A stretch of DNA of 64,000 nucleotides from Cellulomonas sp. P24 (GTDB taxonomy: Bacteria; Actinomycetota; Actinomycetes; Actinomycetales; Cellulomonadaceae), in NCBI RefSeq assembly GCF_024704385.1, contig NZ_JAJDFX010000002.1, positions 1,302,001 through 1,366,000 on the forward strand, written 5' to 3'. The translations under genes and the position numbers were made by a program. The stretch's first letter is position 1. Every line of letters begins with the position of its first letter. Positions 8,618 through 45,233 of the stretch are shown one piece after another. The notes under the pieces were generated by a model that searched no databases, was not told where the DNA came from, and saw only the letters and a program-made list of their open reading frames with translations.

Positions 8618-8734
8618 GTATGGGCTCCAAGGGAAAGGTGAAGACTTGTGTCAGGCGAGCGCGCGCACATGGACCGGGCGCGGGGTCGGGCGAGACGAGC
8701 CTGACCCGCTAGGACGAAGGTCCTACGTGCAATT

Positions 8735-11237: not shown

Positions 11238-11981
11238 GTGGACACCGCCCAGACTCGGGCGACGACCGCACCACGGGCACGAGTGCTCGTGGTCGACAAT
11301 GAGCCCACCAGCCGCGCCCTGCTCGCGGCTGCGCTGCCGCTCGCCGGATTCGAGGTGCACACCGTCACCGACGGCGCAGGCGCCCTGCGGGTCATGCGCC
11401 AGCTCGACCCGGACCTGGTGATCATGGACGTCGTGCTCCCGGGCATGGACGGCTTTGCTGTGACCAGGCAGTGGCGCCGGATGGGACAGGTCGTCCCTGT
11501 GGTCTTCCTCACCGCCCGCGACACGACCGAAGACAAGGTCACGGGCCTGTCGGCCGGGGGCGACGACTACCTCACCAAGCCGTTCAGTCTCGAAGAACTG
11601 GTCGCGCGCATGCGTGCGATCCTGCGCCGGACGTGCGATGCGGGGAGTGCGGACGCGGGCGTACTCGCCTACGCCGATCTCGAGCTCGACCAGGATAGTC
11701 GTGAGGCCACCCGCGCGGGGCACCGGGTTGACCTGTCCTGCACCGAGTTCACACTCCTGCAGTACCTCATGCACAACCAGGGTCGGGTGGTGTCCAAGTC
11801 GCAGATCCTCGAGGACGTCTGGCAGGGTGAATGGGACCGCAGCCCCAACGTCGTGGAGACCTACATCTCCTACCTGAGGCGCAAGGTCGACGGCATCACG
11901 GCTGAGGACGGGTCCACCGTCGCACCGTTGATCCACACGCGGCGCGGTGTCGGATACCTGCTCCGGCAGGCGTCGCCGTGA
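11238..11981 (+). CDS. OmpR/PhoB-family response regulator without an adjacent kinase
   Basis: A 247-residue regulator with a receiver domain: the acidic pair after VLVVDNEP, phospho-acceptor Asp in VIMDVVLPG, and Lys in YLTKPF. A winged-helix domain follows, ending in RRGVGYLLR. GTG 11238 is the likely start. No kinase follows on the same strand; the next kinase is convergent and already paired with its own regulator. The gene lies 92 bases after pspA, so it may regulate or report on the envelope-stress pair, or share the kinase at 12012-13148. Confidence 0.88.
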   Translation: MDTAQTRATTAPRARVLVVDNEPTSRALLAAALPLAGFEVHTVTDGAGALRVMRQLDPDLVIMDVVLPGMDGFAVTRQWRRMGQVVPVVFLTARDTTEDKVTGLSAGGDDYLTKPFSLEELVARMRAILRRTCDAGSADAGVLAYADLELDQDSREATRAGHRVDLSCTEFTLLQYLMHNQGRVVSKSQILEDVWQGEWDRSPNVVETYISYLRRKVDGITAEDGSTVAPLIHTRRGVGYLLRQASP

Positions 11982-19723: not shown

Positions 19724-20094
19724 CGCCACACGGTGCCGCATCGCGATCAGAGCGAGGTCCACCGCCAGGACGTGCAGGCCGCGAACTCACTGCACCGACC
19801 CGGCTCAGTCTGACGACGACCGTGTGCGCCATGCCAACCACGGCCTGGCGCATCTCCGGTTCGAGCCCGGCCAGCAGCTCCGTGGCCCACGATTGCCGCC
19901 GGCAGCGGACCTACCGCGGTTTGTGACGATGCCGGGGTCGGTCGACCGGTGATTCAGATCCTGCCCCGGCGCGGCGGCGATTCTCCGTGGTCGCCGATGC
20001 GGCTACGCCGGCCACGAGCCGGCCAGCGCCGATCTTGACCAGATTTTCGTGGTTTCGAGGTCGGGACGACATGATCGCCGCCCTACTCTGCATA

Positions 20095-20109
20095 TACCCC
20101 GGTGGGGTA
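20095..20109 (+). promoter_or_regulatory. CsoR-type palindrome upstream of the ABC exporter
   Basis: TACCCC-GGT-GGGGTA, a perfect palindrome of the G/C-tract class bound by CsoR-family copper repressors. It is centred 84 bp before the ABC ATPase start at 20186. A TTGACC lies at 20035-20040. The rest of the gap 19724-20185 holds no gene. Confidence 0.7.
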
Positions 20110-20185
20110 CCTGCCGGGTATCGAGCCGCACCTTGCCCCGGACACGCGGTGCGTGCGCCAGCGCCTGGCGTCGAAAGGTTACGCG

Positions 20186-20881
20186 ATGACGACAACCCGC
20201 TTCGCGGTCACTGGAGTGACCGCTTCGAAGGCCGGCGGCGAATCACCGTCTGAGCTGCTCGTCGCAACTGGGATTGAGAAGGCGTACGGGCGCGGTATGT
20301 GGCCGCTGCGGCACCGTCAGGAGGTGTTGCGCGGGGCCAGTCTCAGCCTGCTTGCCGGCGAGGTAGTGGGCCTGGTCGGGGAGAACGGGTCCGGCAAGAG
20401 CACCTTGATGAGAATCCTCGTCGGTGCGCAGGCCTCCGACGCCGGGACGGTGGTCCGCACCGGCACGCTGGGGTACTGCCCGCAACAGCCCCTTGTCTAC
20501 CCCCGCCTCACGCCAGATGAGCATTTCGAGCTCTTCGCGCGCGCCTATCAGATGACCGACGAACAGGCCCGCGTGTCCCGCCAGGGCATCTACGACCGGC
20601 TCGGCTTCGCCCGCTACGCCCATACCCGAGTCGAGCGTCTGTCGGGCGGAACCTTGGCCAAGGTCAACCTCGGGCTCGCGCTGCTCGCGGACCCTGATCT
20701 GCTGTTGCTCGACGAGCCGTACGCCGGGTTCGACTGGGACACATACCAGAAGTTCTGGGGCTTGGTCGCCGACCGCCGTCAGGCCGGTCGCGCAGTTCTC
20801 GTCGTCAGCCACTTCGTGGTCGACGAAGACCGGTTCGACCGCATCGTCGACCTCAAGGACGGACGGGCCGTGGCGCGATGA
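20186..20881 (+). CDS. ABC transporter ATP-binding protein
   Basis: A 231-residue ATPase with Walker A (GENGSGKST), signature LSGGTLAKVNLG, Walker B (LLLLDEP) and the switch His (VVSHF). ATG 20186 follows AAAGG; longer in-frame starts would overlap the palindrome. It overlaps the permease start by four bases (ATGA). ABC-2-type exporters of this shape move lipids, drugs or peptides. The CsoR-type operator upstream points to copper induction, but the substrate is unknown. Confidence 0.85.
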   Translation: MTTTRFAVTGVTASKAGGESPSELLVATGIEKAYGRGMWPLRHRQEVLRGASLSLLAGEVVGLVGENGSGKSTLMRILVGAQASDAGTVVRTGTLGYCPQQPLVYPRLTPDEHFELFARAYQMTDEQARVSRQGIYDRLGFARYAHTRVERLSGGTLAKVNLGLALLADPDLLLLDEPYAGFDWDTYQKFWGLVADRRQAGRAVLVVSHFVVDEDRFDRIVDLKDGRAVAR

Positions 20882-22401
20882 CCGTGCTGGTGTTTGTCCG
20901 GCGCTTCCTCACCGACTACGCCCGCAACCCGGTCAACGTGTTGCTGCTCGTCGTGGTCCCCGTCGTGTTCGTCGTGGTCGTGGCCGCAAGCCTGGCCGAC
21001 TTCGCGAAGCTGCTTGGCGGCAGCGGATCGGCTGTGCAGACCGTCACGGCCGCCTGGGCGGCCGCGTTCCTGGCCGGCATCGCGATGTACTTCCAGATCG
21101 CCGCCACCCGGGACACCGACCGGCGCGTGGTCATCGCCGGGTTCCCGGCCTCCCGCCTGGTGCTCGCTCGGCTCCTGACAGGCCTGGCCCTGGCAGTACT
21201 CGCCAGCGCAACCGCCCTGGTCGCGCTGGCCGCCCGTACCGGCATCGAGGACCCGGTCCCGGTCATCGCCGGCACCGTGATGTCCGCGATCATCTACCTC
21301 GCGATTGGCGCCACCGTCGGCACTGTGGTCCGCAACCCGGTCAACGGCACCGTCATCGTGCTGTTCGTCTGGATACTGGACGTGTTCTTCGGACCCGCCA
21401 TCGGTGCGACTGACCGGGTCGCCACGCGCGGCCTACCGACTCACTTCGTCACGCTGTGGATGGTGGGCCTCCCGTCCGGACACAGCAGCCATGGAGGAGA
21501 TCTCGCCTGGGCCCTGGCGTGGACGCTCACCGCCGTGCTTGCCTCGTGGGCGATCGTCTCGGCGCGTACCGGTCGCGCCCGCGGACACGCCCGACGCCAG
21601 TCCCGGGCACGAACCGGGCAGCTCGTAGCCGCGTCCCAGATGGCCCGGCGCGACGCGCGACGCAACCCGGCCCAGTGGGCGCTGTTCGTCCTCGTGCCGG
21701 TCGTGTTCATCCTCGGCTCCGTGGCGGTCACCCCACACAAGCCCATCACCGTGACGCTCGAGGAGCACGGCCGTCGAATCGCGCACTCCTTGCCGATGCC
21801 CGATGTGCACGCAGCCACCATGGCCCCCCTCGCGATCGCCTCACTGGCAGCGCTGATCGGGTTGTTCTTCCTGTTCGACAGCCGCGAAAGTGATCGACGC
21901 GTCGCCCTCGCCGGGCTGAGGCCGAACGCGCTGCTGGGAGCCCGCCTGGGCGTGCTCACCCTGACGGTGCTGGCCGCGACCGCCGTGTCCGTCGCGACCG
22001 TTGCACAGGTCTTCAACGCCACCCGGTGGCTCACCTACGTCGCAGCGAGCGTTCTCATCGCAATGACCTACGCCCTCGTCGGCGCCCTGCTCGCCCGGGT
22101 CTTCGGGCGAGTCGGCGGCGTCTTCATGGCGTTCGTGCTCCCCTTCCTCGACGTTGGCATCGTGCAGAGCCCGATGCTCCACCCCACCCCCACGACGCTG
22201 GCCACCTGGCTACCCGGCTACGGCGCGTCGCGGGTCCTGCTCGACGGAGCGTTCACCAGCGGCTTCGAGGAGACTGTGCCCCTGCTCATCGGTCTGGGTT
22301 GGCTCCTCGTCCTTGGCGTCGGGGTCGCGCTGGCCTACCGCCACGCGATAGCACCCGCCGCGCCGGCGGCCTGTGCGGGTAGCCGACGCGCCCGTCGTTG
22401 A
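20878..22401 (+). CDS. ABC-2-type permease, tandemly duplicated
   Basis: A 507-residue membrane protein with two homologous halves of about six helices each. The first opens RRFLTDYARNPVNVLLLVVVP, the second QMARRDARRNPAQWALFVLVP, and each later has a matching DTDRRVVIAGF / ESDRRVALAGL segment. The pair would provide both membrane halves of an exporter driven by the upstream ATPase. The start overlaps the ATPase stop. A hairpin (GGTCCC-GTC-GGGACC, 22420-22434) follows the stop. Confidence 0.82.
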   Translation: MTVLVFVRRFLTDYARNPVNVLLLVVVPVVFVVVVAASLADFAKLLGGSGSAVQTVTAAWAAAFLAGIAMYFQIAATRDTDRRVVIAGFPASRLVLARLLTGLALAVLASATALVALAARTGIEDPVPVIAGTVMSAIIYLAIGATVGTVVRNPVNGTVIVLFVWILDVFFGPAIGATDRVATRGLPTHFVTLWMVGLPSGHSSHGGDLAWALAWTLTAVLASWAIVSARTGRARGHARRQSRARTGQLVAASQMARRDARRNPAQWALFVLVPVVFILGSVAVTPHKPITVTLEEHGRRIAHSLPMPDVHAATMAPLAIASLAALIGLFFLFDSRESDRRVALAGLRPNALLGARLGVLTLTVLAATAVSVATVAQVFNATRWLTYVAASVLIAMTYALVGALLARVFGRVGGVFMAFVLPFLDVGIVQSPMLHPTPTTLATWLPGYGASRVLLDGAFTSGFEETVPLLIGLGWLLVLGVGVALAYRHAIAPAAPAACAGSRRARR

Positions 22402-25156: not shown

Positions 25157-27556
25157 TTACCGGAGCCCGGCCGGCGCGGGCACGGCCGTGGTGGCCGATG
25201 TCGGGCCCGTGGGTGTTGCTGGTGTGGGCAGGCGTAGACGCTTGAGCAGCAGGGCGTTGACGGCAACGATCAGTGAGGAACCGGACATCGACAACGCGGC
25301 GATCTCCGGTCGCAGGACGAGCCCGAATGCGGGTTCGAAGACCCCGGCGGCAATCGGCAGGGCGATCGCGTTGTACCCCACGGCCCAGCCGAGGTTCTGG
25401 TGCATCTTGCGCACCGTGGCACGCCCGACGCGCAACGCGACGGACACGTCCAGCGGGTCCGAGCGCATCAGCACGATGTCCGCGGTCTCGATGGCGACGT
25501 CCGTCCCGGCGCCGATGGCGATGCCCACGTCTGCCGTGGCCAGGGCCGGGGCGTCGTTGACGCCGTCGCCGACCATTGCCACCCGTTTGCCGGACCGCTG
25601 CAGCTCGGCGATCTTGGCGGCCTTGTCCCCGGGCAGGACCTCGGCGATCACGGTGTCGATACCGAGCTGGTCGGCGATGCGCGTGGCGGTCGCCTCGTTG
25701 TCCCCGGTGAGCATGACCACGTCGATCCCGGACTCGTGAAGGGCAGCCACCGCGGCGGAAGCGGTGTCCCGCGGCGCATCGGCCAGCGCGATGGCTCCCG
25801 TGGCACGGCCGTCCACAGCGACCAGGACCGCAGTGCGCCCAGAGGCTGCCAGCTCGTCACGACGCTGCGCCAGGTCGCCCAGGTCGACATCGTCGGCCGC
25901 CATGAGCCGGGCGTTGCCGACCAGCACGCGACGTCCGTCCACCTGTGCGCTGGCACCCTGGCCGGGAACGTTGCGGAAATCGGTCATCGTCAATGTCTCA
26001 AGGCCTCGGCTGGCGGCCAGGTCGGCAAAGGCCCGGGCCAACGGATGCTCGGACTCGCGTTCAACCGCCGCTACCAGGGCCAGCATCTCGTCCTGGCTCA
26101 TGTCCTGGGCGATCACGTCGGTGACCTCGGGTGCACCCTTGGTCAGGGTGCCGGTCTTGTCCATCACGACGGTGTCGATCCGGGCCGAGGTCTCCAGGGC
26201 TGTGGCGTCCTTGAACAGCACCCCGCGCCTCGCACCCAGACCGGTACCCACCATGATCGCCGTCGGGGTCGCCAGACCCAGTGCGTCGGGGCATGTGATC
26301 ACCACGACGGTGATCGCGAACAGCATCGCTGTCTGCACGCTCGCACCGGCAGCCAGCCAGACCCCGAACGTCGCCCCGCCACCGATCAGCGCCACCAGGA
26401 CGAGCCAGAATGCGGCCCGGTCGGCCAGTCGTTGCCCGGGGGCCTTGGAGTTCTGCGCCTGCTGGACCATGGCCACGATCTGCGCCAGTGCGGTGTCCGC
26501 GCCGACCTTCGTGGCCCGAACCCGCAACGTCCCGGTGGTGTTGATCGAGGCGCCGATCACCGGCAGCCCGGGTGTCTTGGCGACCGGCATGGACTCCCCA
26601 GTGACCATCGACTCGTCGACCTCAGACTCACCGTCTTCGACCACCCCGTCCACGGGGATCTTCGCCCCGGGCCGGATCAGCAGCAGGTCACCGACCTGAA
26701 CCTCCGCGGTGGGCACCTCGACGAACTGCCCGCCGCGGACGACGACGGCCTTCGCCGGGGCGAGCTCGAGCAGGGTTCGCACCGCGTCGCTCGCCCCTCC
26801 CCGGGCGCGCATCTCGAACCAGTGCCCCAGCAGCACGAACGACGTCAGCACGGTGGCGGCCTCGTAGAAGACGTCACCGCCACCGGTCAGGGTCACCACC
26901 AGGGAGTAAAGCCAACCGGCACCCACCCCCACCGCCACCAGGACCATCATGTCCAGCGTCTTGGCGCGCAAGGCCCGGAACGCGCCGTCGAAGAAGATCC
27001 ACGCCGAGTAGAAGACCACCGGCACCGACAGGCCCAAGGAGAACACGTCGTCGCGCAGACCGAACGGCGCGGCGACGCTGAAACCCAGAACCTGGCGCCC
27101 GATCGGAGACCACAGCACGATCACCACCGAGAGCACGGCCGCGACCACCAACCGGTTGCGCATGTCGCGGACCATGTCCGCCATCGTCATCGCGCCGTGC
27201 CCGCCGCCATGCCCCATCGCCTCATGCACAGAACCGACCGGGGCGTCGTGCCCGCCGTGGGCGTCGTGCGCGTCGTGGCCCGCGTGGCTGGCTGGCGTGG
27301 GCGGCTCGGCCATCGGGTCGCACGAGTGCTCGGGCACCGACTGCCCGGCGCAGTGCAGTCCGCAGTCTCGGACCCAACCGGACAGCTCGGCGACATCGGT
27401 GCGGTCAGGGTCGTAGGTGACGTTCGCCGTCTGCGATACGGCGTTCGCCTCCACGGCGAGGACCCCGGGGCGACGGCGCAAGGTGCGCTCCACCACGGCG
27501 GCGGAGGTGGCCCCGTGCAATCCGCCCACCTGCAAGACGACGGTGCGTGCTGACAT
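25157..27556 (-). CDS. CopB-like heavy-metal P-type ATPase with CPD motif
   Basis: A 799-residue P1B ATPase. The N-terminal HMA-like domain has lost its CxxC (VGGLHGAT). It is followed by a His-rich linker (SHAGHDAHDAHGGHDAP, then MGHGGGHGAM), as in CopB-type pumps. TGES, DKTGT, SEHP and [10 protein letters not shown] are intact. The membrane metal motif reads TCPDALGLATP, so the second Cys or His of CPC/CPH is Asp. The last helices carry YN and MSGSS. The His-rich N-terminus points to Cu(II)/Ag or another divalent metal rather than Cu(I). It lies downstream of csoR. Confidence 0.9.
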   Translation of the reverse strand: MSARTVVLQVGGLHGATSAAVVERTLRRRPGVLAVEANAVSQTANVTYDPDRTDVAELSGWVRDCGLHCAGQSVPEHSCDPMAEPPTPASHAGHDAHDAHGGHDAPVGSVHEAMGHGGGHGAMTMADMVRDMRNRLVVAAVLSVVIVLWSPIGRQVLGFSVAAPFGLRDDVFSLGLSVPVVFYSAWIFFDGAFRALRAKTLDMMVLVAVGVGAGWLYSLVVTLTGGGDVFYEAATVLTSFVLLGHWFEMRARGGASDAVRTLLELAPAKAVVVRGGQFVEVPTAEVQVGDLLLIRPGAKIPVDGVVEDGESEVDESMVTGESMPVAKTPGLPVIGASINTTGTLRVRATKVGADTALAQIVAMVQQAQNSKAPGQRLADRAAFWLVLVALIGGGATFGVWLAAGASVQTAMLFAITVVVITCPDALGLATPTAIMVGTGLGARRGVLFKDATALETSARIDTVVMDKTGTLTKGAPEVTDVIAQDMSQDEMLALVAAVERESEHPLARAFADLAASRGLETLTMTDFRNVPGQGASAQVDGRRVLVGNARLMAADDVDLGDLAQRRDELAASGRTAVLVAVDGRATGAIALADAPRDTASAAVAALHESGIDVVMLTGDNEATATRIADQLGIDTVIAEVLPGDKAAKIAELQRSGKRVAMVGDGVNDAPALATADVGIAIGAGTDVAIETADIVLMRSDPLDVSVALRVGRATVRKMHQNLGWAVGYNAIALPIAAGVFEPAFGLVLRPEIAALSMSGSSLIVAVNALLLKRLRLPTPATPTGPTSATTAVPAPAGLR

Positions 27557-27641: not shown

Positions 27642-27926
27642 TCAGCTGCGCACGAGCCGGGCGATCGCGGCCGAGGCCTCTTTGAGCTTGGCGTCCTGCT
27701 CGGGCCCCCCGGTCCGGGCGGCGTCCACCAGACAGTGACTCATGTGGTCCTCCAGCAGCACCAGGGCCACCGACTGCAGTGCTCGGGAGGCTGCCGAGAC
27801 CTGCGTCAAGACCTCGATGCAGTAGGTGTCCTTCTCGACCATGCGGGCGATCCCGCGCACCTGACCCTCGATGCGACTCAGCCGGTTCAGCAGGTCGCTC
27901 GTCGGGCATCGGTCCACCGTCATCAC
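27642..27926 (-). CDS. csoR: CsoR-family copper-sensing repressor
   Basis: A 94-residue four-helix regulator with the Cu(I) ligand set in place: Cys in DTYCIEVLTQ, then His and Cys in LLEDHMSHCLVDA (C-H-C). Apo-CsoR binds G/C-tract palindromes and releases them on binding Cu(I). Two such palindromes in the window (20095 and 31212) are probable operators. It is followed after 85 bases by the CopB-like ATPase on the same strand. Confidence 0.93.
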   Translation of the reverse strand: MMTVDRCPTSDLLNRLSRIEGQVRGIARMVEKDTYCIEVLTQVSAASRALQSVALVLLEDHMSHCLVDAARTGGPEQDAKLKEASAAIARLVRS

Positions 27927-28012: not shown

Positions 28013-30838
28013 TCAGGATGTCGCGGCGCCGGCGTACGTGTGCGGATCCGAGTTGAAGGTCGCGGCGCAGGCCGTGGAGCAGAAGTAGTAGGTGGTGCCG
28101 TGGTGCTCGGCGCTGGCGGCGGCCGTGGCCGGGTCCACGCCCATGCCGCAGACCGGATCGGTGGTCTTGCTCGACTTTCCGAACATGGTGTCCTCCTGGT
28201 GTTCATCGCGCCCGATCTCCACCACCGGGTCGGTGGTGGGCACCCGGACGTCGTCATCGATGGCCCGCGGCGTGAACCTGCGGAGCCGGTTGGCGTTGGC
28301 CACCACGGACAGTGACGACAACGCCATCGCACCTGCGGCGATCATCGGGCTCAACCGAAGGCCGAAGGCGGGGTAGAGCGCGCCGGCGGCGATCGGGATG
28401 CCGATCCCGTTGTAGACGAACGCGAACACCAGGTTCTGGCGGATGTTGCGCATCGTGGCCCGTGACAGGTCGATCGCGGTGACCAACCCGGACAGGGCCC
28501 CGGAGATCAACGTGATGTCCGAGGCCTCGATGGCCACGTCGGTGCCGGTGCCGATCGCCGAGCCCACGTCGGCCTGCGCCAGCGCCGGGGCGTCGTTCAC
28601 GCCGTCGCCGACCATGCCCACCACGCGCCCCTCGCCCTGCAGTCGGCGCACCTCGGCAGCCTTGTGCTCCGGCATCACCTCGGCCAGGACCCGGCGGATG
28701 CCGACCTGGCGGGCGATGGCGGCGGCGGTGGCCCGGTTGTCACCGGTCATCATCACGACCTCGATCCCCAGGGCGTGCAACGCCGCCACGGCTGCGGCCG
28801 AGCCGGTCTTGATGGTGTCGGCCACCGCGACGACGGCGGCGGGGCGCCCGTCGACGGCCACGAGCATGGGGCTCTTGCCGTCGGCGGCCAGGCGCGCGGA
28901 CTCCGACTCGAGGACGCCGGCGTCGATGCCGGCTCCGGATAGCAGGCGCCGGTTGCCCACCAGCACCTCCCTGCCTGCGACGAGGGCCCGCACGCCCTGG
29001 CCGGTGATCGAGTCGAATGCCGTCGCCGGTGTCAGGGCCAGGCCACGTTCCTTGGCGCCGGCGACGATTGCGGTGGCCAACGGGTGTTCGGAGGAGACCT
29101 CGACGGCCGCGACCAGCGCCAGAACCTCCTCGGAGGTGAAACCGGGTGCGGGCAGGACATCGGTCAGGACCGGGGTGCCGTTGGTGATCGTGCCGGTCTT
29201 GTCCAACACGATGGTGTCGAGCTTGTGCGCGGTCTCCAGGGCCTCGGCCGACCGGATGAGGATCCCGGCGGTGGCGCCCTTGCCGGTGCCGACCGTGATC
29301 GACAAGGGTGTCGCCAGACCAAGCGCGCACGGGCAGGCGATGACCAGCACCGAGACCCCCGCCACCAGGGCGAAGACGAATGCGGGCGGCGGACCCACCA
29401 GCGCCCAGACGACGAAGGTCCAGATCGCCAACGCGATCACCGCCGGCACGAAGTAGCCGGAGACCTTGTCCGCCAGTCGCTGGATCGGGGCCTTGGAACC
29501 CTGAGCCTGGCGGACCAGCTTGATGATTTGCGCGAGCATGGTGTCCGCGCCGATCTTCATCGCCTGGTAGGTGAAGGTCCCGGTCTGGTTGATCGTGGCG
29601 CCGATGACGGTGTCACCTGCCGCTTTGACGACCGGGATCGGTTCACCGGTGACCATCGACTCGTCCACGGGCGACCGACCCTCGACGACCACTCCATCCA
29701 CGGGAAGCTTCTCTCCTGGGCGCACCACGACGACGTCACCCAGCACCACCGCGTCGATGTCGATCTCGGTCTCGACCCCGCCGCGGACGACGCGGGCGGT
29801 GCGTGGCTGCAGCCCGATCAAGGTCCGGATCGCCTCGCCGGTGCCCGCCTTGGCTCGCGTCTCGAACAGTCGCCCGAGGAGGATCAGGGTGACGATCACC
29901 CCGACAGCCTCGTAGTAGACCGACCGGACGTCGGCGGGCAGCACGCCGGGGACGATCGTGACGACGAGGCTGTAGCTGTAGGCCGCGATCGTGCCCAGGG
30001 TGATCAGGGAGTTCATGTCCGCGGTGCGGTGAGACAGCGCAAGCCACCCGGTGCGGTGGATCGGCCACCCGGTCCACACCATCACCGGGGTGATGAGCGC
30101 GAGCTGGAACCACCTGTTCATCAACAGCATAGGGACCCAGGTGACTCCGGCCAGGTCGGTGAGCATCACCGCGAACAGCACGGGCGCGGTGAGCACCGCG
30201 CCGAGGATCACCCGCCGCTTGAGGTCGGCAATTTCTGCGTCTCGCTCCCGCTCCTCGGCATCGGCAGCCTCCGCCGCTGCCGCTGCACCCAACGGGTCAC
30301 CTCCACCGCCCACGACGGAGGCGGTGACCGGATCGATCGCACCGTCCAGGGCCTGGACCCGTGACCCGCCCATCACCTCGTCCGGGCTGTCGTCGTGCAG
30401 CTCGCCCAGTGCCGCGATGAGTGCCTCCACACCACCGGGCGCCGCGACCTCCGGCGACGGGGCGTCGCCGACCACCCGCAGGGTGCCGTGCAGCATGCTC
30501 ATCCCGCACGCGAACCCGTACTCACCGGGAACCTCGGGGGTGAACTCGACCGCCGTGGTCTCGAACGCGGGAAGGGTCTGGTTGACCTTGAAGTCCGCGA
30601 AGACCACCCGCGAGGAGCAGTCGCCGGACTCCTGGCGGTCGAACAACAACCTGACGGGCACCCCGGGGACCACCTGGATGACGTCCGGGCTGTACCCGCC
30701 CTTGACCGTCACCGTGACGACCTGCACCCCGTTGTCGAGCTGCGCCCGGCGCGAGGTCTTGGGTCCGAAGAAGTACCAGGCCATCAGCCCCGTGAGGGCC
30801 GCGGCCACGACGATGATCACCACGTCGCCGATGTTCAT
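28013..30838 (-). CDS. Cu(+) P1B-ATPase fused to an N-terminal cupredoxin and a C-terminal YHS domain
   Basis: A 941-residue protein. In order: a membrane helix ([20 protein letters not shown]); a cupredoxin-like domain with copper-ligand region ACGMSMLHG near residue 110; an acidic linker; then a Cu(I) ATPase core with TGEP in place of [23 protein letters not shown] and [10 protein letters not shown], ending in MALSS. The last 57 residues are a YHS domain ([19 protein letters not shown]). An AGGAGGA lies just before an in-frame ATG at 28186, so the YHS part (28013-28186) may also be made as a separate protein. It is coupled by ATGA to the HMA protein upstream. Confidence 0.9.
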
Positions 30839-31152
30839 GACCGTGCACCTCCACCTTCGCTGTGACCAGACGAACCGTGCCTGACCTCGTGATCGCCGAC
30901 GGGCGGCGCCGGGGTGCGCTCCCGGATTCGGGTCCTGGCCCCGGTGAGGGCGAACCCCGCCTCACCGACCGCGTCGCGGACCTGCCCGAGGCCGACATGC
31001 GGCCTGGAGGTGACTGTCACTGAGGACGACCCGTCACGAACGAGGTCGACCTTGACCTGGGTCACCCCCGCCACGTCGTGCACGTGCTCCAACACCTGCG
31101 CGAGGCAGTCCCCGCAGGTCAGCCCTTCGACGTCATACCGCGTGGTCGTCAC
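30835..31152 (-). CDS. HMA-domain copper chaperone
   Basis: A 105-residue protein with an N-terminal HMA domain ([12 protein letters not shown]) followed by a basic, His-containing tail ([23 protein letters not shown]). GTG 31152, with GGGGGATC before it, fits the family N-terminus better than the ATG 18 bases upstream, which has no spacing from its purine run. It is coupled (ATGA) to the fused Cu-ATPase, to which it presumably delivers Cu(I). Its promoter carries both a CsoR palindrome and a CopR-type repeat. Confidence 0.88.
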
Positions 31153-31211
31153 GATCGATCCCCCGTCCATCTCTCGCAGGTTTGCGCTCGGCGTCGTCCC
31201 GGTCGCCCCTG

Positions 31212-31230
31212 GATACCCCGTTGGGGTATC
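31212..31230 (-). promoter_or_regulatory. CsoR operator overlapping a promoter
   Basis: Perfect palindrome GATACCCC-GTT-GGGGTATC. On the minus strand a TTGACT (31238-31243) lies just upstream, so the palindrome covers the spacer and -10 region of the promoter for the HMA/fused-ATPase operon. A repressor bound here would block RNA polymerase. Confidence 0.85.
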
Positions 31231-31274
31231 TGGTGCCAGTCAAGACCGGGCAGGTGTCCGTTGGACGCCGGATC

Positions 31275-31292
31275 CCTGAAGATTCGATGAAG
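31275..31292 (-). promoter_or_regulatory. CopR-type direct repeat for the HMA/fused-ATPase operon
   Basis: CCTGAAG-ATTC-GATGAAG on the plus strand, reading leftward as CTTCATC-GAAT-CTTCAGG. It lies about 30 bp upstream of the TTGACT and 123 bp from the start codon, a suitable activator position. Confidence 0.8.
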
Positions 31293-31352
31293 ACACCGGC
31301 GGCCTGGCGCGGACGGGCCGCGGCGGGCCGCCGACGCGTGAAGGCCCGGGGA

Positions 31353-32507
31353 TCACCCCGAAAGGTTGTGCGCACGCACGTGCTGGTGCGCGGGCAGGTG
31401 GATCCGGAACCTTGCCCCCGTGCGGGGTCCCTCGCTTGCCGCGGTCAGCGTGCCCCCGTGGGCCTGGACGATTGCCCGGGCGATGGTCAGACCGATCCCG
31501 CTGCCTGCCGAGGACCGGGTGCGGGAGGCATCGGCCCGGTAGAAGCGCTCGAAGAGCCGCTCGGCGTCGACCGGATCGAACCCGGACCCGGTGTCGACGA
31601 CTTCCAGGACGGCGCCACGCGGATCGGTGGCGACAACCACGTGGACCGCGCCCCCTGCGGGGGTGTGTCGCAGTGCGTTGTCGAGCAGGTTGGCGACGGC
31701 TTCGGTGATCCGGTGCGGGTCCACCCGTACGACAGCTGCCCGATCAGTGATCCGCAGGTCCAGCTGCACCCCTGCCGCGACGTAGCGGGCTCGGGCCGCG
31801 GCGACCGCGTCGGTCGCCAGTCCGCCCAGCTCGACCGGTTCGGCGTGCAGGTCCAGCTGTCGCTCCTCGGCCCGCGAGACGGCAGACATGTCGGCCACGA
31901 GATGGCGAAGGCGATCGGCCTGGTCGATCAAGGTCGCCCGCGTGACCGCATCCAGTGGCAGGACACCGTCGACCACGGCCTCCACCGTGGCCTCCAGCGA
32001 CGCGATCGGGGTGCGCATCTCGTGGGCCAGGTCTCCGATCAAGCGCCGGCGAATGGTCTCGGTGTCTGCCAACCGGGCCGCCATGGCGTTGAACGCGTCG
32101 GCGAGCTGGGTGAACTCCGGGCCGATGGCCGGGGCCTGGACGCGCACGCGCAGGTTGCCCCGGGCGATGCGATCGGCCGCGTCGGCCACAACGGCGACCG
32201 AGCGCCCCAGACGCCTGGCCACGATCCACGTCACGGCGAACGCGGTGATCATCGCCACCGGTACGGCCACCCCCAAAGAGGTGAGGATCGTGTTCGCGAA
32301 CGCGTCCTGCACCTGCATCAGCAGGGTCGGGTCGAGAGGTCCGCCCACCGCCATCCGCAGGTGGTACCGGAACGCTGTGGGCGCGACGCCCAGGGCGACA
32401 CCGAGCACGGTCACTCCGCCGGCGAGCACCACGAGCCCGAGCGAGACCATCAACCGCCACACGAACCCCAACGGGGTGCGGCCCCTGCCCCGACGACGCG
32501 TTCTCAC
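31353..32507 (-). CDS. Sensor histidine kinase, second CopS-like
   Basis: A 384-residue kinase: membrane helix (FVWRLMVSLGLVVLAGG), an extracytoplasmic loop of about 50 residues, a second helix, HAMP (LGRSVAVVADAADRIARGNL), His in LAHEMRTPIASL, and HATPase motifs LLDNALRHTP and DTGSGF. GTG 32507 follows GGTGGG; the longer open frame upstream overlaps the regulator gene. It is paralogous to the kinase at 12012, with a different sensor loop, so the two may see different ligands or thresholds. Confidence 0.89.
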   Translation of the reverse strand: MRTRRRGRGRTPLGFVWRLMVSLGLVVLAGGVTVLGVALGVAPTAFRYHLRMAVGGPLDPTLLMQVQDAFANTILTSLGVAVPVAMITAFAVTWIVARRLGRSVAVVADAADRIARGNLRVRVQAPAIGPEFTQLADAFNAMAARLADTETIRRRLIGDLAHEMRTPIASLEATVEAVVDGVLPLDAVTRATLIDQADRLRHLVADMSAVSRAEERQLDLHAEPVELGGLATDAVAAARARYVAAGVQLDLRITDRAAVVRVDPHRITEAVANLLDNALRHTPAGGAVHVVVATDPRGAVLEVVDTGSGFDPVDAERLFERFYRADASRTRSSAGSGIGLTIARAIVQAHGGTLTAASEGPRTGARFRIHLPAHQHVRAHNLSG

Positions 32508-32583
32508 CGATACCCACCCGGCCGACCCACGGGCCCCACGTTCACCCCAGGCGCCGCGGCGAGTCGGACCGCGGCCAGTGACG

Positions 32584-33342
32584 TCATCCGGCGCCCATCC
32601 GGTAACCGACTCCCCGCACCGTGCGGATGTAGCGCGGGGCGCCCGGGTCGTCGCGGAGCTTGCGCCGCACGTGCCCCAGGTGGATGTCCACGATCCTCTC
32701 GTCGCCGAACCATGCGGGTCCCCACACCTGCTGGACAAGCCGGGTGCGGCTGAACGCGGTCCCCGGACGCGAGGAGAGCGTGCTCAGCAGGTCGAACTCG
32801 ATGGGGGTCAGGACGACCATCTGCTCGCCCAACCACACCTCGCGCGCCTCCGGGTCGATGCTCAGCTCACCGAACCGGCGCACGGGGGCGGCCTCCGGGG
32901 ATCCCGCGCCGTCAGATTGCGCGGCGTCCGCGCGTGGGCGGCGCATCATGGTGCGGATACGAGCGACCAGGACCCGCGAGGAGAACGGCTTGGTCATGTA
33001 GTCGTCGGCACCCACCGACAGGCCGACCAGGGTGTCGATCTCCTCGGCCCGCGCGGTGAGCATGATCACGTAGGCGTCGCTGAACGTCCGCAACTGACGG
33101 CAGACTTCAGTCCCGTCGATCCCGGGCATCATCACGTCCAGCACGACGACGTCCGGGTGGACCTGACGAGCCACACGCAACGCCTCGTGCCCATCACCGG
33201 CGGTCGTGACGTCGAACCCCTCACGCCGGAGATAGGCCGCAACGACCCGCACCAACGACGGCTCGTCGTCGACCACCAGTGCCCGGATGCGGGGCACACC
33301 CGAAGGGCCCGCATCCGTCGTCGGCCCCTCGGGTGCCATCAT
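32584..33342 (-). CDS. OmpR-family response regulator, second CopR-like
   Basis: A 252-residue regulator: VVDDEPSLVR, phospho-acceptor Asp in VVLDVMMPG, YMTKPFSS, and a winged helix with DIHLGHVRRKL and RTVRGVGYRMG. The DNA-binding region is very close to that of the regulator at 13145, so both could recognise the same CTTCATC-type repeats. ATG 33342 follows GAGAGGGACTGGGA; an ATG seven codons upstream is the alternative. The kinase follows after 76 bases. Confidence 0.9.
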   Translation of the reverse strand: MMAPEGPTTDAGPSGVPRIRALVVDDEPSLVRVVAAYLRREGFDVTTAGDGHEALRVARQVHPDVVVLDVMMPGIDGTEVCRQLRTFSDAYVIMLTARAEEIDTLVGLSVGADDYMTKPFSSRVLVARIRTMMRRPRADAAQSDGAGSPEAAPVRRFGELSIDPEAREVWLGEQMVVLTPIEFDLLSTLSSRPGTAFSRTRLVQQVWGPAWFGDERIVDIHLGHVRRKLRDDPGAPRYIRTVRGVGYRMGAG

Positions 33343-33435
33343 TCCCAGTCCCTCTCCGTGCATGTGTGAGCCATTCCTCGTGGTCGCGCACGGTCAGCTC
33401 GCACCGAACCGCGGCGCCTGCGCACGAACGCGGGG

Positions 33436-35217: not shown

Positions 35218-35487
35218 GTGGTCATGGAGATGGACCCGGAAGAAATGGCCAGAGTCGTCAACCGGCTCAGGCGGACCCAGGGGCAGGTGGGGGGCGTCGT
35301 GCGGATGCTCGAGGAGGGTCGGACCTGCGAGGACATCATCACCCAGCTCGCCGCAGTCAGCCGGGCCCTGGACCGGACGGGATTCGCCCTCACCGCATCG
35401 GGACTCAGGCAGTGCCTGGCCGACTCCGGCGGCACGGAGACGACGGACACGCTCAAGCTGGAGAAGGTGTTCCTCTCACTCGCCTGA
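35218..35487 (+). CDS. CsoR/CstR-family regulator lacking the copper-ligand His
   Basis: An 89-residue member of the CsoR/RcnR fold: NRLRRTQGQVGGVVRMLEEG, Cys in TCEDIITQLAAV, and Cys in SGLRQCLADS. The His that completes the CsoR copper site is absent from the second motif. That two-cysteine pattern is closer to CstR, which senses persulfides, so this may be a thiol or sulfide sensor rather than a copper sensor. It probably controls its own operon with DUF302. Confidence 0.85.
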   Translation: MVMEMDPEEMARVVNRLRRTQGQVGGVVRMLEEGRTCEDIITQLAAVSRALDRTGFALTASGLRQCLADSGGTETTDTLKLEKVFLSLA

Positions 35488-44348: not shown

Positions 44349-45233
44349 TCAGGCCGCGTCTGCGGCTGCGTAGATCATCTCAAACTCGACGGGGGTGAGC
44401 TTGCCCAGGGCGCGCTGTCGGCGGCGACGGTTGTACTTGGTCTCGATCCAGGTCACCATCGCCAGCCGGAGCTCCTGGCGGGTGTCCCAGCGGCGGGTGT
44501 CCAGGACGTTCTTCTGGAGCAGGGAGAAGAAGCTCTCCATGCTGGCGTTGTCGCCGGCTCCGTATGAGCGGCCCATCGAACCGACCAGGCCGTTGTTCGC
44601 GAGCAGGCGCTGGGTCTTCTTGGCGCGAAATTGACCGCCCCTGTCCGAGTGACAGATCGTTCTCACCGGTGAGCGCAGGGCGATCGCGTTCCGCATCGCT
44701 GAGACCGCCAGCGACGCCTTCATCCGCGAGTCGATGGAGTAGCCCACGATCTTGTTGGAGTACAGGTCCTTGATCGCGCAGATGTAGAGCTTGCCCTCGC
44801 GCGTGGGGTGCTCGGAGATATCCCACAACCAGACCTTGTTGGGAGCCTCGGCGACGAACTCGTGACGGACCACGCCGTGCTCGTCAACCACCGCGAGGAG
44901 GTCGTCATGCGGAGCGGGGCCGGTGGCACCTGGCTTGCTGGTCTTCTTCTTCGCATGAGAGGCGTAGATGCCGGCGATGCCACACAGCCGGTGCACGCGG
45001 TTCTCGCCCACGACGATGCCGTGCTCGTCGGCCAGCTCGTCGGTGAGGAACCTGTAGCCCAGCGTCGCATCGTCCTGATGGATCTCGTAAAGGACGTCGA
45101 TGAGGTGGGCGTCGTCCCAGTCCCGTTGGGACACGGGGTTCTTGAGCCACTTGTAGTACCCCTGCGTCGTCAGACCCAGGACCCTGCACGCCACCGCGAC
45201 CGGCACCCTGATGCGGGCGCCGGCCGCGGCCAT
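44349..45233 (-). CDS. IS3 OrfB transposase (DDE integrase)
   Basis: A 294-residue rve-type integrase domain. The catalytic residues are Asp in WLWDISEH, Asp in CHSDRGGQF and Glu in NASMESFFSLL; the HTH_21-like region AHLIDVLYEIHQDDATLGYR precedes them. It is normally made as an OrfAB fusion by -1 frameshifting; the OrfB frame continues upstream past its ATG as KIVFPLVREMAAAG to the slip site at 45254-45263. Confidence 0.93.
   Translation of the reverse strand: MAAAGARIRVPVAVACRVLGLTTQGYYKWLKNPVSQRDWDDAHLIDVLYEIHQDDATLGYRFLTDELADEHGIVVGENRVHRLCGIAGIYASHAKKKTSKPGATGPAPHDDLLAVVDEHGVVRHEFVAEAPNKVWLWDISEHPTREGKLYICAIKDLYSNKIVGYSIDSRMKASLAVSAMRNAIALRSPVRTICHSDRGGQFRAKKTQRLLANNGLVGSMGRSYGAGDNASMESFFSLLQKNVLDTRRWDTRQELRLAMVTWIETKYNRRRRQRALGKLTPVEFEMIYAAADAA

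Follow-up and report, generated by a model that had tools for sequence, protein, structure and literature searches.

The window analysed here, a 64,000-nt stretch of the genome of Cellulomonas sp. P24 (GCF_024704385.1, NZ_JAJDFX010000002.1, positions 1,302,001-1,366,000), carries a copper operon on its minus strand, with the gene order HMA - cupredoxin-ATPase-YHS - csoR - second copper ATPase (copA). The first gene (30835-31152) codes for an HMA-domain copper chaperone-like protein; its likely start is a GTG at 31152, preceded by GGGGGA at 31164-31159. It is followed by a copper P-type ATPase with N-terminal cupredoxin and C-terminal YHS domains (28013-30838), a CsoR-family repressor (27642-27926) and a second copper P-type ATPase, in which an HMA domain is present (25157-27556). 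This gene content agrees with a preliminary description of the locus, which had placed an HMA/fused-ATPase operon below the promoter. Relatives of the fused ATPase over most of its length were found in contigs of several phyla. Immediately upstream of the promoter lie genes for a sensor histidine kinase (31353-32738, minus strand; the longest ORF, whose real start is probably further in) and an OmpR-family response regulator (32584-33363, minus strand). Both score below the cut-offs of the NCBIfam heavy-metal sensor/regulator models (cztR_silR_copR), so the candidate names CopS and CopR are used here by analogy. Upstream of the promoter a stem is present at 31297-31333; no terminator was found there, and with a fold z-score of just -1.1 this candidate was set aside.

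The operon CsoR aligns with CsoR of Streptomyces lividans (4adz, E 2e-29). Its Cu(I) ligand residues Cys36, His61 and Cys65 coincide with those of 4adz, 4m1p and a chromosomal copy, and the RLxR motif described for CsoR helix 1 in the part of PMC3902906 consulted here is present as RLSR. There are four CsoR-family genes in the genome, one of which (C2:2121197) also bears the Cys-His-Cys set. The CsoR-family protein encoded at 35218-35487 contains Cys residues and has a glycine in place of the ligand histidine, and thus probably senses something else; a persulfide-type sensor may be guessed. As for the response regulator at 32584, it shares 50% identity and a near-identical recognition helix (GDERIVDIHLGHVRRKL vs GDERIVDVHIGNLRRKL) with a Corynebacterium plasmid regulator, which was the comparator here rather than C. 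glutamicum CopR itself. The plasmid regulator has a CopR-type repeat at the annotated start of its gene. Five regulators of the Cellulomonas genome were compared: those at 32584, 13145 and C2:4037981 are alike, and those at 11238 and L021:4724 fall outside this group.

Upstream of the HMA gene we found a CopR-type direct repeat on the minus strand (31277-31293; TGAAGATTCGATGAAGA, with 0 mismatches to TGAAGATTNNNTGAAGA; operon-sense TCTTCATCGAATCTTCA), as had been proposed for a position about 30 bp above the other promoter elements. The C. glutamicum pattern consists of two 9-bp repeats, TGAAGATTT, separated by a 2-bp linker; the CopR site TGAAGATTTgaTGAAGATTT with its repeat TGAAGATTTnnTGAAGATTT was established by gel shifts with altered fragments, according to the sections of PMC3140484 at hand. 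The window sequence reads TGAAGATTC-GA-TGAAGACAC and agrees in 14 of 18 letters, the first half-site in 8 of 9 and the weak second one in 6 of 9. By this pattern it is a putative CopR site of the C. glutamicum type. At up to 3 mismatches the window contains 12 matches to this repeat type (0.55 expected). Across the genome, 15 matches with at most 2 mismatches, compared to 1 for a reversed control, are confined to three places (6 at C2:55-75 kb, 8 in the window and 1 at C2:4035638). Multicopper oxidases, DUF3105 proteins, Lgt-like and PspA-like proteins as well as ATPases are encoded nearby, a gene set that looks like a copper regulon. Judged by eye, the repeats mostly read TCTTCA-N5-TCTTCA toward the next gene and lie about 70-130 nt above its likely start codon, the reading being ambiguous at repeats 692, 17590, 44248 and L021:558. 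The repeat at the exporter promoter has the same orientation and lies 124 nt above the HMA gene. Repeat 44248 is closely followed by an IS-type integrase-core gene (44349-45233), which may have separated it from its gene. A further element, the palindrome AGGACC-NTN-GTCC, occurs at 8712-8724, C2:61135 and C2:2121036, next to the promoters of two multicopper oxidase genes and of the chromosomal csoR. It resembles DosR-type sites; being hardly enriched genome-wide (13 vs 9 in reversed controls), it was rejected as a copper-promoter element.

The second motif is a CsoR-type operator, GATACCCC-N3-GGGGTATC, at 31212-31230. The perfect palindrome that had been noted before thus exists, as an 8-3-8 arrangement and the sole exact match in the window. 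Its letters, TACCCCAACGGGGTA, contain a TAC-X9-GTA inverted repeat around G-tracts, the type 2 operator motif given for S. lividans CsoR in the portion of PMC3902906 used here. With up to 3 mismatches, the pattern has 2 matches in the window (0.12 expected) and 12 in the genome, against 0 with a reversed control. Four of the 12 are near copper- or transport-related genes: the window site, 20093, C2:2121056 upstream of the chromosomal csoR, and C2:4035825 upstream of an ArsP-type gene. Site inspection covered 6 of the 12, the six others having 2-3 mismatches. Two of the inspected palindromes were taken as chance occurrences, C2:3488585 because it is inside a tRNA-like stretch (by eye) and 382783 because it is inside a predicted ORF. 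The palindrome at 20093-20111 (2 mismatches) coincides with the beginning of a pair of ABC-transporter genes (20102-22401), whose real gene start may be further in.

Within 150 nt downstream of all 17 other CopR-type repeats of the genome, no palindrome (at most 1 mismatch) was detected. Among the CopR-type promoters found in this genome, that of the exporter alone would therefore be gated by CsoR, those of multicopper oxidases and other genes apparently lacking a CsoR site. The 17 repeats were picked by hand; C2:74436 (within an ORF), the overlapping shifted copies L020:13150 and L021:547, the 3-mismatch copy L021:2670 and the window's own repeat at 31277 were omitted. An apparent second dual site at C2:4035638/4035827 proved to be two back-to-back promoters: in the stretch C2:4035638-4035843 (L022:7639-7843) the repeat points toward a small gene on the minus strand, and the operator is part of a spacer promoter for an ArsP/YHS gene on the plus strand. 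The ArsP permease encoded there has three YHS domains and is followed by a regulator of the CopR group.

That both sites belong to one promoter, as the preliminary description had proposed, is borne out by relatives of the same pump, upstream of which pairing and spacing are kept, and by the orientation of the repeat, which (by eye) is that of most other CopR-type repeats. Contigs were scanned for relatives of the fused ATPase, the best 80 loci were taken, and the window together with the first 44 (L030-L073) was searched for composites, defined as a repeat (at most 2 mismatches) with a palindrome (at most 1 mismatch) 20-70 nt below it. Composites are present in 24 of the 45 loci, window included, and all gaps are 45-55 nt. 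Cutting near copies at 85% identity, whereby L030 and L031 fell with the window and L044-L048 with L043, left 17 non-redundant composites including the window. Using exact motifs at any gap within 1200 nt above the ATPase, both were found in 15 of 42 loci (L032-L073). In 14 of these the pair is 45-54 nt apart, near copies (L043-L048) making up six of the 14; only L041 deviates, with the exact pair at 74 nt and, at 54, a second repeat that is degenerate. A repeat without palindrome is present at six loci (L038, L039, L049, L050, L062, L069), and a palindrome without a repeat within the limits at six others (L034, L036, L053, L060, L065, L067). Among the latter, L034, L036 and L060 appear composite-like by eye, having a degenerate repeat and, above the palindrome, a TAnnnT.

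Among the named genera are Sanguibacter, Intrasporangium, Kocuria, Nocardioides, Cellulomonas, Propioniciclava, Propionicimonas and Micropruina. Metagenome contigs assigned to Acidobacteria or Proteobacteria account for a few matches; in the Proteobacteria case the ATPase is 96% identical to that of the window, and the contig is perhaps misfiled. In a looser scan of all 80 best loci, no pairing was seen in the last 36, which are mostly non-actinobacterial. Two genomes of the same family also have the composite, the near-identical L130 and L134 with a gap of 48. Genome scans with the exact composite pattern (own genome included) detected it in 2 of 396 genomes from the order and in 1 of 396 from the phylum, with 0 in reversed controls, so that it is specific but patchy and rare; the other match of this genome scan, L139, likewise precedes an HMA gene. 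In the stretches examined around the 17 non-redundant composites (window counted), 11 loci showed a csoR homologue and likewise 11 a CopR homologue; several of these stretches end near the ATPase. Above the ATPase of six plasmid relatives, the repeat (at most 1 mismatch) was found in 0 and the palindrome (at most 1 mismatch) in 4; L145 is composite-like by eye with a degenerate repeat.

A TTGACT is indeed present between the two motifs (31243-31238, minus strand), 33 nt below the repeat. It had been taken for the -35 element, with the palindrome covering the spacer and the -10 region after it. There is no TAnnnT 15-22 nt below TTGACT, and a strict scan for a sigma-70-like site at this promoter found none, though in GC-rich DNA this counts for little. 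Judged against other CopR-type promoters, TTGACT instead falls at the -10 position. A hexamer nAnnnT follows 33-34 nt after the repeat at 14 of the 17 other repeats of the genome, some of which are homologous pairs, and 0 of 2000 shuffles reached this count at any offset. The 16 composites other than the window behave similarly (TAnnnT in 10, nAnnnT in 11; 0 of 2000 shuffles reached either at any offset). The offset was first spotted by eye on the same sequences; the shuffles cover the choice of offset and not that of the hexamer. Among 27 additional repeats taken from relatives the pattern holds far less well (nAnnnT at +33 in 4, at +34 in another 4); many of these represent another repeat variant and could be sites of other regulators. 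L130 and L134, which are among the 27, are not scored as fits, their hexamers being TTGACT and TTCACT. Similar hexamers at the -10 position are TTGAGT in L058 and TTCACT in L033, L041 and L134, and L032 has TTGACG-17-CATTGT. The window's TTGACT is without the A at position 2 of a -10, and its assignment is supported by position, not by letters.

With TTGACT (31238-31243) as the -10, a weak -35-like hexamer, GTCCAA, would lie 17 nt above it at 31261-31266, and transcription is predicted to start on the minus strand at about 31231 (give or take some 2 nt). The centre of the repeat would then be at about -54 and the palindrome at about +2 to +20, hence most likely on the transcription start and not over spacer and -10. 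The preliminary description had made its reading depend on a start site that leaves the palindrome overlapping the promoter; the predicted start does differ, but even an operator at +2 to +20 would overlap with RNA polymerase. A MerR-type promoter with a long spacer was considered as well, and the -10 position speaks against it.

The four CsoR-only promoters that were compared are built differently. The chromosomal csoR promoter (TTGCGA-16-TATCGT), that of the ArsP/YHS gene (TTGCGG-16-TATGGT) and those of a Corynebacterium plasmid (TGGACA-16-TATAAT) and a Rothia plasmid (TATGCT, weak -35) have the operator in the spacer, with a -10 at its right arm; both plasmids have the gene order regulator-kinase-HMA-ATPase. 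At the palindrome's right arm (offsets 0-5), 4 of 4 CsoR-only promoters contain a TAnnnT vs 1 of 17 composites (L054), the comparison being confined to these four, which were gathered unsystematically and of which two are in this genome. Testing the right arm at one position only gave 0 of 17 composites and 1 of 4 CsoR-only promoters, and the wider offset test was used instead. The right arm in the window reads TATCCA, with no TAnnnT at offsets 0-5. Similar operons thus seem to occur with two designs, one with a spacer operator under CsoR alone and the other CopR-dependent with the operator at the start site.

From the two motifs, paired at a conserved spacing, the -10 position, the ligand residues and the two-component genes, together with general knowledge of the CopR and CsoR families, we infer the following mode of control. 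CopR, phosphorylated by the kinase in response to extracytoplasmic copper, would bind the repeat centred at about -54 and recruit RNA polymerase to a promoter whose -35 is weak and whose -10, TTGACT, deviates from the consensus. As long as cytoplasmic Cu(I) is lacking, CsoR on the palindrome at about +2 to +20 would block initiation or promoter escape, and Cu(I) would free it from the DNA. Full expression would then require both signals, an AND-type logic, and the pump would probably be fully on only at high copper levels outside as well as inside the cell. Since CopR and CsoR would act on different DNA, activation and repression could be adjusted independently, and with csoR inside the operon the switch would limit itself as well. 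On the available sequence evidence, we consider such a composite copper promoter, with AND-type control of the exporter by phosphorylated CopR and CsoR, to be likely.

The main alternative left is additive instead of strict AND control: both sites would work, with phosphorylated CopR overriding CsoR and CsoR suppressing only basal leakage, in a graded fashion. The two modes look alike in sequence, and csoR, being part of the operon, would shift in level with induction. Yet an operator on the start site is suited to block any recruited polymerase, and this layout is kept in 17 non-redundant promoters, so additive control appears unlikely to us. It is very unlikely that the promoter has the previously proposed layout, with TTGACT as -35, CsoR over spacer and -10 and CopR acting from about 30 bp above. 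The resemblance of TTGACT to TTGACA and the four CsoR-only promoters with an operator in the spacer, two of which are in this genome, speak for it; the missing TAnnnT at spacers 15-22, the empty promoter scan and the -10 found at the same position in most compared promoters speak against it.

That CsoR alone matters, the repeat being a remnant or serving another use such as an antisense transcript or copRS read-through, would fit the two regulator-kinase-HMA-ATPase plasmids, where a CsoR-type spacer promoter precedes the HMA gene and no repeat was found at that place, and the six plasmid relatives of the fused ATPase without a repeat at up to 1 mismatch. The fixed spacing of repeat, -10 and palindrome across genera and the orientation shared with most other CopR-type repeats make this highly improbable. 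Binding of the palindrome by another of the four CsoR-family proteins, for which the Cys-His-Cys copy at C2:2121197 would be a candidate, is hardly credible, given that the operon's own csoR comes after the ATPase, that a csoR homologue occurs in 11 of the 17 non-redundant composite loci (window counted) and that the copy at 35218 is without the histidine; the mechanism would remain unchanged anyhow. Composite, AND-type control by CopR and CsoR remains our preferred reading. Whether it extends to a class of actinobacterial copper-exporter promoters, in which an extracytoplasmic two-component activator and a cytoplasmic Cu(I) repressor form an AND gate at a single start site, the CsoR operator having shifted from the spacer to about +2 so that the two proteins can occupy the DNA together, and the pump alone being gated by internal copper, seems to us an even question. 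If true, external copper would not switch on a pump to empty a cell whose cytoplasm is not overloaded. The geometry leads to simple predictions for the start site, the effect of removing either site and the effect of spacing changes, and a natural two-input copper promoter would be a candidate part for biosensors.

In enterobacteria, too, one cell senses copper both in the cytoplasm and outside it, by CueR and CusRS, with an activator site near -54. These act on separate promoters, both as activators. Among the literature matches listed, which lay mostly outside subscription journals, no promoter with both CsoR and CopR-type sites was found, and the parts of PMC3902906, PMC4938975, PMC3353115 and PMC11978298 consulted describe none of this composite kind. 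CsoR of S. lividans resembles the window case in its type 2 operator TAC-X9-GTA and controls csoR and copZA, with no mention of an activator site in the consulted part of that report (PMC3902906). Among the CsoR-only promoters of this analysis, all four place the operator in the -35/-10 spacer; in the window it is at the predicted start. Another close system is CopRS of C. glutamicum, which shares the direct repeat TGAAGATTTnnTGAAGATTT, the sensing of extracytoplasmic copper and the activation of copper ATPase and multicopper oxidase genes (PMC3140484, as far as consulted). A single CopR site is given for C. glutamicum in those sections, compared to about 18 CopR-type repeats (at most 3 mismatches) in the regions examined here (PMC3140484). 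That one site serves two divergent clusters, and CsoR was proposed as a parallel cytoplasmic sensor acting on ctpV, whereas in the window both sites are located at one promoter (PMC3140484, same sections). C. glutamicum is described there with parallel circuits; the sequences presented here suggest that in several actinobacterial genera the two circuits converge on one promoter.
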